Positions 2,076-20,571 of a stretch of 64,000 bases of DNA are shown piece after piece. The number at the start of each line of letters is the position of its first letter. Position 1 is the first letter of the stretch. The notes beneath the pieces were generated by a model, which worked only from the letters and a program-made list of their open reading frames with translations, was not told the DNA's origin and searched no databases. A program made the position numbers and the translations under genes. This DNA is from a bacterium (GTDB taxonomy: Bacteria; Sysuimicrobiota; Sysuimicrobiia; Sysuimicrobiales; Segetimicrobiaceae): assembly GCA_035295165.1 (NCBI GenBank), contig DATGJN010000026.1, positions 1-64,000 on the forward strand, read 5' to 3'.

Positions 2076-2855
2076 CTATTGGCCTAGCTGATCGAGCCGA
2101 CTCATGTCCTCAGCAGTGATCTCGAAGTCGAAGACCCGCGCGTTCTCGTCGATGTGCTCCGGCCGCTGGGACTTGGGAAGGGCTGTGGTGTGCTTCTGCA
2201 GCGCCCATCGGATGAGAATCTGCGCGGGCGATCGCTCGTAGGCCTGCGATATCGCCAGGAGCCGTCGATCGCGCAGTTGCCGTCCCTTCGTGAGCGGACT
2301 GTACGCCTGAACGGCGATGCCGTGCTCGCGGCAGAAGTCCGCGAGCGCCCGGTCGAAGCCGAATGGGGAGAACTTGATCTGGTTCACGGTGGGCGGGATC
2401 TTCGCCGTGCGCAGGATCTCGCTGAGTTGATCGATGGAATGGTTGCTGACGCCGATGGCCCGGCACCTGCCGTCGCGGCACAGTTCTTCCATCGCCTTCC
2501 AGGTTCGCGTGACCATGCCCGGCGCGGGCCAGTGCACGAGATAGAGATCGACGTACTCGAGGCCGAGCGTCGCGAGGCTCCCCGCGAACGCATCGCTCGC
2601 GTGGGGTTGATCCCCGGTCCACAGTTTGGTCGTTACCCACACGTCCTCTCTGGAAACGCCGCTGTTGCGAACGCCTTCCCCGACGCCCTTCTCGTTGTGA
2701 TAAACTTTCGCGGTGTCGATGTGGCGGTACCCCGCCCGCAAGGCGTACGCGACCGCGTCCGCGGCCGGCTTCCCATCTTCGATCTGCCACGTTCCGAGCC
2801 CCAGCACCGGCATCGCGGTGCCGTTGTTCAGCGTTACGCGGGACTGCAGGTTCAT
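2076..2855 (-). CDS. Aldo/keto reductase (AKR5-like)
   Basis: A 259-residue cytosolic NADPH-dependent reductase of the aldo/keto reductase superfamily. The catalytic tetrad is visible: Asp and Tyr in HIDTAKVYHNE, Lys in VWVTTKLW and His in LYLVHWPAPG. The cofactor-binding segment AIGVSNHSIDQL and the C-terminal LPKSQRPEHIDEN loop are intact, and the length is normal for AKR5 members (2,5-diketo-gluconate or methylglyoxal reductases). The start is the ATG of MNLQSRV behind AGGGAG; the 44 codons upstream do not resemble the family. A GGGTCC/GGACCC hairpin at 2034-2054 lies just past the stop and may help termination. The substrate is not determined. Confidence 0.9.
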   Translation of the reverse strand: MNLQSRVTLNNGTAMPVLGLGTWQIEDGKPAADAVAYALRAGYRHIDTAKVYHNEKGVGEGVRNSGVSREDVWVTTKLWTGDQPHASDAFAGSLATLGLEYVDLYLVHWPAPGMVTRTWKAMEELCRDGRCRAIGVSNHSIDQLSEILRTAKIPPTVNQIKFSPFGFDRALADFCREHGIAVQAYSPLTKGRQLRDRRLLAISQAYERSPAQILIRWALQKHTTALPKSQRPEHIDENARVFDFEITAEDMSRLDQLGQ

Positions 2856-3090
2856 CACGCGTCTCCCTGTCTGCGGCGTCTTTCCAGCGTTCTGGTCGCC
2901 CCGAGGATCTTCCTGTGCGGCGCCCGGGCGACGCCCGCGCTGTCGCGGCCCGTCTGAGAGGCGGCGGCATCTTCGCAACATCTGCATGCTGCATTCACTG
3001 AGTCTTCACTGGGTCTTCACGGGTGACGCTTACGATGGCAGTAGAGGCGGGGAACGAATCCTTCCCGCTCGGGAAGCGAGGAGATCAGCG

Positions 3091-3639
3091 ATGCGACAAC
3101 TGACCGCGGTCGTCACTGTGGTCCTGATCACATGCCTGGGGCTCGCCAGCGTCGGCAGCGCCCAAGCGCAGCAACCGTTGCAGATCCAGGGCACGCTTCA
3201 GGCGGCGAACTGCCAAGCCCAGGAGATCACCGTGAACACGTCCGGCGGCGCCTCGACGTTTCCGGTCACCAACCAAACCGCGATCTACGTGAACGGCACG
3301 TTGACGCCGGTATGTTCGCTCCAAGCGTTCGTCGGAGCCCCCGTGACGGTGTACCTCGTGCCGAGCAACAGCCAGTTCGTCCTGGGTCGGCTGGACGTTA
3401 GCGTGCCGCAGGCCGCATCCCAGCCGGCGCCCTCGAGCGTGGCGGCGCCGTCCAGTTCCTCGACCGCGGTGGGCATCGCGCTCGGCGCGCTGTTCCTCGG
3501 CGGGCTCGCATACGTACTCCTGCACAACGCGAACAACCAACCGGCGCCGGCCTACGACTACAATCGCGGCGGCGACCACCGCTCCGATCAACGGAACCGG
3601 TGCCAAGATCCGAACAGCGGGAACCAGTGGTGCCGGTGA
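3091..3639 (+). CDS. Secreted or membrane-attached hypothetical protein
   Basis: A 182-residue protein I do not recognise. It starts with a clear signal peptide (MRQLTAVVTVVLITCLGLAS, probable cleavage after SAQAQ), continues with a ~75-residue beta-rich domain containing two cysteines, then a Pro/Ala/Ser-rich linker, one hydrophobic segment (VGIALGALFLGGLAYVLL) and a short polar tail with two further cysteines. This suggests an exported domain held to the membrane by a C-terminal helix. The ATG follows AGCGAGGAG. The 235 bp upstream separate it from the divergent aldo/keto reductase; a strong hairpin follows the stop. Confidence 0.6.
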   Translation: MRQLTAVVTVVLITCLGLASVGSAQAQQPLQIQGTLQAANCQAQEITVNTSGGASTFPVTNQTAIYVNGTLTPVCSLQAFVGAPVTVYLVPSNSQFVLGRLDVSVPQAASQPAPSSVAAPSSSSTAVGIALGALFLGGLAYVLLHNANNQPAPAYDYNRGGDHRSDQRNRCQDPNSGNQWCR

Positions 3640-3661
3640 CCGACGGCACGACGCGATGAAC

Positions 3662-3701
3662 GCGGGAGCCGCGGGGCGCGCCACCGCTCCGCGGCTCCCG
3701 C
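3662..3701 (+). terminator. Strong hairpin after the secreted protein gene
   Basis: A perfect 13-bp G+C stem (left arm 3662-3674, right arm 3689-3701) with a 14-nt loop lies 23 bp after the stop at 3639 and before the convergent gene ending at 3733. There is no T-run, so it is terminator-like and could work on both strands, but the call rests on structure only. Confidence 0.5.
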
Positions 3702-18175: not shown

Positions 18176-19378
18176 CTAATCTCCGTCGGGAACGAGCACC
18201 GCGCCCGTTTCGTTTTCCGGCAGCATGGCTTGCGGCAGGTGGTGATGCGGCAGGAAGAACCGGTTCGCCACCCAAGTCGGGACCACCGCACTCGCAATCA
18301 CGGTTGCGACCAGAAAGGAGTATTGACTCTGCGAGATGATTCGGTGGGATAGCCCATACAGCGACGAGATCGTCCCGAACGTCAAGCCGGTCGACATCAA
18401 CAACGTTGTGTACATGGCCTCGTCCCATCTGTACTGGAGGCGCAGCGTCAGCGGATAGAGCGCGACGAACTTACTGACGGCCTTGGCGAGGAAGAGCAGC
18501 ACGAAGATGCCGATCCCTGCGACCAACACGGGAATTTGCACAAACGACCCCGCGCGAAGGAAGTAGAATGGCGTCAGCAGGCCGAGGCTCAGCGTCCGTA
18601 GGCGCCTGACGAAGGCAAGGTCTCTCCCGACCGTCCCGGCGAGCACCATACCGATGAGATACGCCGGCAATACCGGTTCCGATCCAGACCACGCGGCGAG
18701 GCCGCCGAGCAAGAACAGCGTGAACAACAGATATTTAGTTTCGAACTCCGACGGTCGACCGCCGAACCTCCGAAACAGGCCGGCCGTGCCGATGAGCAGC
18801 GCCCCGAGACTCAGCACGACGGCTGCGAGAAAGGCAAGGGTACGCCACGTGAACGGGGCGAAGATGAGGCCGAGCGCGATCACGGTGCCGAGGTCGTTCA
18901 CGAAGCACGCGGCGAGGATCACCTTTCCGAAATGGGTTCGGTTCAGACCAAGTTCGAGCATCACCGCATACACGACGGCGACCGACGTCGTCGACAGCGC
19001 AACACCCGCGAGCCAGGACGCCGACGAATTCCATCCGAGAAAGAGGCGAGCCACCGCTGCGGCTCCGAGGAAGGGCGCAACGAACCCGATGAGACCGAGG
19101 AGGGTCGTTTCCTTCCAACTCTGGCGAATCGCGACTGGGTCGAGTTCCGCCCCGGCGAGGAAGGTCAGCATGATCGAACCCAACCCCGCCACGAATACAA
19201 TCCAGCCATCGTTGGCGCCGAGGACGCTGGCGCCCCATGTGCGGGAAATCACGAAGGCCCCGAGCACGCCCACGACGATCTCTGTGAGCGCGATGGACAC
19301 GCGGAGCCAGAACGACAGGAGCACGGCGACGAGCGCAAGCCCGAGCCAGGTCGATGCGGTGAGCCAGACGTTGTCCAC
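18176..19378 (-). CDS. CPA2-family cation/proton antiporter under fluoride riboswitch
   Basis: A 400-residue inner-membrane protein with about 12 hydrophobic segments. The Na+/H+ exchanger domain features LAGAELDP in helix 3-4, TTSVAVVYAVMLELGLN, and the ion-binding pair in CFVNDLGTVIALG (Asn-Asp, as in electroneutral members). The soluble KTN/NAD-binding domain of KefC-like proteins is absent. I start at GTG 19378 because GGAGGGAG lies 6 nt upstream; an ATG at 19405 sits right behind the riboswitch terminator with no ribosome site. Control by a fluoride aptamer suggests it helps tolerate fluoride or the acidification that HF entry causes; that role is inferred from the RNA. Confidence 0.88.
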   Translation of the reverse strand: MDNVWLTASTWLGLALVAVLLSFWLRVSIALTEIVVGVLGAFVISRTWGASVLGANDGWIVFVAGLGSIMLTFLAGAELDPVAIRQSWKETTLLGLIGFVAPFLGAAAVARLFLGWNSSASWLAGVALSTTSVAVVYAVMLELGLNRTHFGKVILAACFVNDLGTVIALGLIFAPFTWRTLAFLAAVVLSLGALLIGTAGLFRRFGGRPSEFETKYLLFTLFLLGGLAAWSGSEPVLPAYLIGMVLAGTVGRDLAFVRRLRTLSLGLLTPFYFLRAGSFVQIPVLVAGIGIFVLLFLAKAVSKFVALYPLTLRLQYRWDEAMYTTLLMSTGLTFGTISSLYGLSHRIISQSQYSFLVATVIASAVVPTWVANRFFLPHHHLPQAMLPENETGAVLVPDGD

Positions 19379-19408
19379 GACGATCTCCCTCCGGGGTGCG
19401 GGCATACG

Positions 19409-19444
19409 AAAAGCCCCTACCCGACTACGGTCTGGGTAGGAGCT
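19409..19444 (-). terminator. Intrinsic terminator forming the riboswitch expression platform
   Basis: Stem of 11 bp with one G-U pair (19444-19434 with 19422-19412), an 11-nt loop and a TTTT run (19412-19409). Its left arm AGCUCCUACCC reuses the 3' strand of the aptamer, so aptamer and terminator exclude each other: fluoride should stop termination and let the antiporter be transcribed. Confidence 0.85.
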
Positions 19445-19484
19445 ATCAGCCCCGGCAGGGCGGTTTCGGCGAGCTCCATCGCCG
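19436..19484 (-). ncRNA. Fluoride riboswitch (crcB motif) aptamer
   Basis: The minus-strand RNA aligns base for base with the fluoride riboswitch: P1 arms CGGCG (19484-19480) and CGCCG, the inner AUGGAGC, the conserved AAAC (19466-19463 region), the hairpin GCCC-ugccg-GGGC, the signature CUGAUAG and the 3' arm GCUCCUAC, where GGAGC pairs with GCUCC. It lies ~60 nt upstream of the antiporter start. Binding of Mg2+-bound fluoride stabilises this fold. All core positions I remember from the Thermotoga petrophila structure are kept. Confidence 0.9.
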
Positions 19485-19584
19485 CACGCGGCTTCAAGCG
19501 GCAGTATATCGGCGCTCAGAGTCCGTTGTCAAATCACCGTGCCAACCGCAGCGTGTCAGGGGCCCGCCGCGTGTCGATCCCGCG

Positions 19585-19761: not shown

Positions 19762-20571
19762 CTACGCCCGCGCAACCGGCACCTGAATCTCGGTGACGTA
19801 GGTTTCGTCGTCCTGACGGACGGGTTGCCCGCAGTGTAGGTATAGTTCGCGGATCGGCCCCGCGACACGATAGCCGTTCGTTTCGATCCAACGGAGGATG
19901 GCCTCGTACGACTGGTTCAGTCGGTTGTAGGCGCCGTGGTGCACCGTGCAGGCCATGAGCGCCGCCGGAAGTTGATAAACGCGCGCGCGTCCGCTTATCG
20001 ACGCGGGATTCGCGAGGTACACGGCCGCCTCGGCGTCCACATCGCGTTCCTTGTGCTCAGCATCGTGCCAGATCGCGACCGCTAGGGCCCCGTCGGCCTG
20101 GCGGCCTAGATCAGCAAAAACGTGCGGGAACAAGCGGCCGACGTCCGGATAGGCGGGCAGGACCTCGCGCACGGAGGCCACCCATTGCGGATCAACTTCC
20201 TTCAGGACGACTTCGGTGCCCATCGTTCTTCCCTCCCTCTCGATCAGGTGTAGGTAGGCGTCGATGCGAGTCAGGCGGGAGCGTTCGTCGGACAGACGAG
20301 TTTCCTGCTCCGCGCGGCGCAATCGCAGCATGCCGCGGAGTTGTTCGGCCGTCACTCCGTCGCGGAGCAGCGAGGCGACCTGGCCGAGCGAAAACCCGAG
20401 ATCCTTGAGCGCGAGAATGCGGTGAAGAACGGCGAGCTGGGACGCCGCGTAGTACCGGTACCCCGTTGCCGGGTCGACGCGCGCCGGTGTCAGCAGGCCG
20501 AGTTCGTCGTAGTGTCGGAGGGTCTTCACCGAGACGCGGCACAGCGCCGAGAAGTCGCCGATCTTGATCAT
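19762..20571 (-). CDS. MerR-family regulator with GyrI-like effector domain (BmrR type)
   Basis: A 269-residue activator. Residues 1-70 are a MerR winged helix (MIKIGDFSALCRVSVKTLRH, YDELGLLTPARVDPATGYRY), followed by the dimerising coiled coil (about 75-120) and a GyrI/BmrR-like ligand-binding domain (about 120-265; GTEVVLKEVDPQWVASVRE onward). Such proteins bind drugs or cationic lipophiles and activate promoters with long spacers. The promoter directly upstream is of that type and its predicted transcription start coincides with the ATG, so the mRNA is probably leaderless; no ribosome site at normal spacing is seen. It diverges from the FadR-like gene. Confidence 0.9.
   Translation of the reverse strand: MIKIGDFSALCRVSVKTLRHYDELGLLTPARVDPATGYRYYAASQLAVLHRILALKDLGFSLGQVASLLRDGVTAEQLRGMLRLRRAEQETRLSDERSRLTRIDAYLHLIEREGRTMGTEVVLKEVDPQWVASVREVLPAYPDVGRLFPHVFADLGRQADGALAVAIWHDAEHKERDVDAEAAVYLANPASISGRARVYQLPAALMACTVHHGAYNRLNQSYEAILRWIETNGYRVAGPIRELYLHCGQPVRQDDETYVTEIQVPVARA

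Follow-up and report, generated by a model that had tools for sequence, protein, structure and literature searches.

A predicted fluoride ON switch ahead of a NapA/CPA2-like antiporter gene in a bacterial genome without Fluc or CLC-F

In riboswitches of the fluoride class, fluoride together with Mg2+ stabilises the aptamer, and transcription proceeds. The aptamer is known as the crcB motif (RF01734; Weinberg 2010, PMC2864571; Baker 2012, described in PMC7266159). By 2010, terminators overlapping the motif had been seen, ligand binding was expected to raise expression, and K+ transport genes were already listed among those carrying it (PMC2864571). After the fluoride exporters, Na+/H+ antiporters are the next most common class linked to fluoride riboswitches, a link that has been interpreted as pH homeostasis (PMC11139923). 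An earlier note on the DNA described here called antiporters a minority target, which undersells them. Another system of interest is the fluoride operon of Enterobacter cloacae FRM, a riboswitch-controlled set of six genes that includes UspA, enolase and CrcB, with no antiporter named (PMC5533749).

The usual centre of fluoride defence is an exporter, Fluc or CLC-F. According to a review, an exporter is found in >85% of representative bacteria, and the exceptions are mostly reduced symbionts. In the literature searched, what the riboswitch-linked Na+/H+ antiporters contribute to fluoride resistance has so far been a matter of conjecture. The same search, with most subscription papers outside its reach, found no experiments on a riboswitch-linked CPA2 protein, no family-wide count of aptamer–antiporter pairs and no account of whole lineages that have the antiporter but lack both known exporters.

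The window, which is the whole stretch of 64,000 nucleotides analysed here, is one of the contigs of a draft genome of 4.79 Mb (97.9% complete). The features of the locus are as follows:

19503–19532, minus strand: promoter-like element (-35 TTGACA, 18 bp, -10 TATACT), sigma-70-like by consensus match alone (11 of 12 bases)
19430–19492, minus strand: fluoride riboswitch aptamer (RF01734, crcB motif), from the Rfam covariance model (51 bits, E = 3.5e-11)
19409–19444, minus strand: intrinsic-terminator-like hairpin and short U-run, its left arm overlapping the 3' pseudoknot strand of the aptamer
19385–19392, minus strand: ribosome-binding-site-like GGAGGGAG, by sequence reading, 6 bases 5' of the GTG
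18176–19378, minus strand: Na+/H+-exchanger-type (CPA2-like) antiporter (PF00999) of 400 aa with a GTG start at 19378, the predicted riboswitch-controlled gene

About 10 bases separate the promoter-like element from the start of the aptamer. Upstream of the antiporter is a gene for a MerR regulator with a GyrI-like domain (19762–20571, minus strand), and downstream are genes for a sugar-type ABC transporter and for a TIM-barrel isomerase/epimerase-like protein (18040–13913, minus strand); none of these shows any sign of a fluoride role. Co-transcription of the antiporter with the sugar ABC genes from 18040 downwards is unlikely, because the gap is 135 bp and the functions are unrelated, and no gene in the window is evidently a co-transcribed partner of the antiporter.

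The leader is almost certainly a fluoride riboswitch, to judge from its sequence. The RF01734 match spans the entire model (positions 1–64) at 19492–19430 on the minus strand, including the pseudoknot, and scores well above the gathering threshold (51 versus 34 bits). It is the sole RF01734 aptamer in the 4.79 Mb genome. The earlier note, which had recognised the crcB motif from the sequence alone, placed the riboswitch at 19378–19484; this span correctly takes in the expression platform up to the start codon and leaves out the first 8 bases of the aptamer. Overlapping the 3' end of the aptamer is a hairpin at 19444–19412 formed by AGCUCCUACCC and GGGUAGGGGCU and followed by U, with a folding energy of -22.8 kcal/mol (z = -5.0) that none of 200 shuffled sequences equalled. 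The whole terminator element (19444–19409) reads AGCUCCUACCCAGACCGUAGUCGGGUAGGGGCU-UUU. The CUCC in its left arm is the same strand that pairs with the loop GGAG in the aptamer pseudoknot. A simple terminator scan did not list this hairpin; its U-run is short (UUUUCGU). With a terminator that overlaps the 3' strand of the aptamer and a transport gene downstream, the leader differs in nothing essential from those described, and the riboswitch itself is an ordinary member of its class.

Both structures are conserved in an alignment of 14 leaders that precede genes of the antiporter family, taken from the window and from related genomes of the same order. The pseudoknot is paired in 100% of the cells, with both partners exchanged in two of its four pairs (GGAG/CUCC versus GAGG/CCUC), and the terminator is paired in 99.4%, again with both partners exchanged in two pairs. 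Shifting either structure by a single column brings pairing down to 51–66%. Since pseudoknot and terminator are both conserved with paired changes, a single strand is kept complementary to two alternative partners, which matches what a transcriptional ON switch needs. Hairpin stability and covariation thus bear out the earlier proposal of an OFF-type terminator that shares the 3' strand of the aptamer. They indicate an expression platform that excludes the aptamer, and an ON switch of this mutually exclusive kind is well supported as a prediction. In one of the 14 leaders (L006) the hairpin is present and the U-run absent, so the read-out may differ there. It might be argued that the motif is a chance match or a decayed aptamer without function and that the antiporter regulates pH as an ordinary housekeeping protein, as could fit a genome with one aptamer only. 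However, the E value of 3.5e-11, the correctly placed promoter and terminator, and the paired changes by which orthologous leaders keep both alternative structures make this extremely improbable.

The 400-aa product matches the PF00999 Na_H_Exchanger family over residues 14–366 (105.2 bits versus a gathering threshold of 26.2, E = 4.6e-30). The Na+/H+-exchanger part of the original CPA2 assignment therefore holds, and CPA2 itself is a matter of similarity: TIGR00932, the NCBI CPA2 model, is the best NCBIfam match, yet its 83.7 bits fall below the cut-off of 238.3, so the protein is termed CPA2-like and not filed as a CPA2 member. The KefB model NF002973 also matches weakly. When a profile of the family was searched against the PDB, only entries of NapA (4bwz, 5bz2 and 5bz3) matched, with E values of about 1e-10. 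NapA 4bwz (E = 1.1e-10) can be aligned over residues 38–364, although at only 44 bits. In this alignment, the Asp-Asp pair of NapA falls on N161-D162 and its TM10 Lys on K303. We take these positions to be those of the ion-site aspartates and of the TM10 lysine, respectively, by the residue roles in NapA.

The second Asp and the Lys thus correspond to NapA, while the first Asp is replaced. D162, K299 and K303 are invariant across 90 family members, and position 161 is Asn in 62 and Thr in 28 of them, so that none has the NapA-type Asp-Asp pair. Because of this replacement, neither the ion nor the stoichiometry can be read from the sequence. The motifs STTSVAVVY and MSTGLTFG are also invariant, which is set aside as evidence, as the scan of the collection was seeded on both. 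The genome encodes one further PF00999 protein, a distant paralogue (L192) that also has ND at the ion site. In related genomes, the same aptamer precedes orthologues with 63–74% identity. Overall, the protein seems to belong to a distinct NapA/CPA2-like subfamily.

The link between this subfamily and fluoride extends well beyond the window. The 80 nearest relatives were chosen by protein similarity alone, among the matches listed, from 84,980 species genomes. In 62 of them, a same-strand RF01734 match at gathering score lies ≤2 kb upstream of the gene, and in 37 of these it lies within 400 bp. For four of the remaining 18, the record contains <150 bp of DNA upstream. The 80 listed loci also encode DUF190 proteins (51 loci), UspA-like proteins (50, nearly always just downstream of the antiporter), Fluc (38), enolase (9) and MFS transporters (8), where all partner names except Fluc were assigned by reading representative sequences. 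The antiporter family thus has, in other genomes, the same kinds of partners as the E. cloacae FRM operon. Its hosts include Pseudomonadota, Acidobacteriota, Nitrospirota, Planctomycetota, Thermodesulfobacteriota, Actinomycetota and Armatimonadota, and in a quick tree the riboswitch-linked members are scattered over branches and several phyla. Within the order of the window genome, 14 of the 15 genomes that have the antiporter also have the aptamer. The aptamers at 62 of the 80 listed loci and the frequent Fluc/CrcB, DUF190 and UspA partners mark this as a fluoride-response antiporter family, and a role across many phyla is well supported by these associations.

Two further observations concern neighbouring genes. 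In G009 and G007, a ChrA-like gene (chromate transporter family, by eye) starts 50–64 bp behind the antiporter (L165 and L167) and possibly shares its riboswitch-controlled transcript. A separate link between exchangers and the riboswitch is seen in G060 (L019, from position 1613 onward), where a fluoride aptamer and a long terminator stand ahead of another Na+/H+-exchanger-like protein, which has extra C-terminal sequence and lies outside the subfamily.

Known exporters were identified as PF02537 matches (Fluc) or as CLC proteins with the CLC-F signatures GREGT/V and GEVTP, taken from PMC11139923. No PF02537 match was found anywhere in the 4.79 Mb genome, and its two CLC proteins are both canonical, with GREGP and neither GREGT/V nor GEVTP. 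The earlier statement that the window holds no other fluoride gene can thus be extended to the whole genome. While the pairing of riboswitch and antiporter is a documented class, in which this genome joins the 62 of 80 listed relatives, the lineage context without Fluc and CLC-F is the new point.

Among 43 genomes of the order (G000–G042), Fluc is present in three (G014, G022 and G025). The few CLC proteins in these genomes have no CLC-F signature, and that of G025 is broken in two. In a draft assembly Fluc might be overlooked in one genome, but hardly in 40 of 43. Aptamers above the cut-off occur in 20 of the 43, and all 20 of these genomes carry the antiporter (14), an MFS transporter of the type found in riboswitch operons, or both; of the remaining 23, G017 alone has either. 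In G000, G007 and G009, all of them without Fluc, CLC-F or a riboswitch-type MFS transporter, the antiporter sits behind the single aptamer of the genome. Outside the order, 43 antiporter genomes had no Fluc detected at the locus among the matches listed, and 22 of these have no Fluc anywhere and no CLC-F signature. These 22 are mostly drafts, although the Thermoleophilia genome (L096) is nearly one contig of 4.6 Mb. A strict anticorrelation between antiporter and Fluc was considered and dropped, as many loci carry both and the order is poor in Fluc with or without the antiporter.

The reading that we consider highly probable is that of a transcriptional fluoride ON switch governing a fluoride-response NapA/CPA2-like antiporter, most likely a cation/H+ exchanger, in a setting without Fluc or CLC-F. 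In the absence of fluoride, the nascent leader would fold the hairpin at 19444–19412 and transcription would stop. With Mg2+ and F- bound, the CUCC strand would be held in the pseudoknot, blocking the terminator, so that the antiporter gene would be transcribed. The antiporter would then exchange a monovalent cation for H+, which may counter the load of acid, or the difference in pH across the membrane, on which the entry of HF and the trapping of F- depend, and in this lineage it would do so without Fluc or CLC-F. That the product is a fluoride-induced cation/H+ antiporter is the most likely interpretation, with the transport chemistry suggested by NapA homology, the invariant D162 and K303, and the published pH-homeostasis view.

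The simplest form of the cation/H+ reading sits badly with one aspect of the data. If protons were just pumped out, the pH gradient would grow steeper and, without an exporter, more F- would be trapped, an ill fit to the absence of Fluc. In lineages of this sort, acidifying exchange and direct export therefore deserve weight. A Kef-like acidifier would take H+ in against K+ or Na+, giving a flatter pH gradient and less HF trapped as F-, and this would account for protection where Fluc and CLC-F are missing. The antiporter does fall in the same broad superfamily as KefB and KefC, as the weak NF002973 match indicates. However, it stops at 400 aa and lacks a Kef-type regulatory domain at its C terminus, and the direction of transport is not readable from the sequence. 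We regard such an acidifier as unlikely, if worth keeping in mind.

Alternatively, the antiporter might itself export fluoride, coupled to H+ or to a cation, as a third class that replaces Fluc and CLC-F here. Its own genome without either exporter, the contrast between three Fluc-bearing genomes among 43 in the order and the >85% of the review, the three single-aptamer genomes and the 22 of 43 listed genomes outside the order that lack any Fluc or CLC-F signature all point this way. So does the loss of the acidic partner of the conserved Lys (N/T161) with K299 and K303 invariant. Against this, Fluc is encoded at 38 of the 80 listed loci, where the antiporter is found beside a real exporter; the protein shares its fold family and its invariant Asp with cation/H+ exchangers; and the first Asp is missing in other exchangers as well, including the paralogue L192. 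Direct export is thus rather improbable, as is the wider idea that the fluoride-linked subfamily is a third exporter class able to take the place of Fluc and CLC-F across whole lineages of bacteria.

In the window genome, with both known exporters missing, the antiporter is the only recognisable fluoride-regulated transporter. Such genomes offer clean settings for learning whether this antiporter can protect a cell on its own and which of H+, a cation or fluoride it carries, and the family is worth testing as a stand-alone fluoride defence.

Other fluoride aptamers in the order precede different genes. One of these genes encodes an MFS transporter (PF07690; L151 in G001:C10, about 2505–3671, L157 in G026 and L159 in G021). 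In a genome of the same genus, with no Fluc, no CLC-F and no antiporter, it follows a fluoride aptamer directly; elsewhere it is found behind or next to the antiporter itself, which makes it a second candidate fluoride transporter. Aptamer matches in L152, L154 and L151, some just under the cut-off, precede genes for a MoxR-type ATPase and a DUF58 protein, and also a MutS-domain-V protein and a membrane hydrogenase/NuoH-like gene. In G001, a stretch of 6 kb contains a cluster of four aptamers. Finally, in L160 (G031:C13:79688–79622, minus strand), L157 and L156, aptamers that do not all reach the cut-off lie ahead of an operon for small Pfam-less proteins and a DUF6062 protein, an arrangement that recurs in several families of the order.
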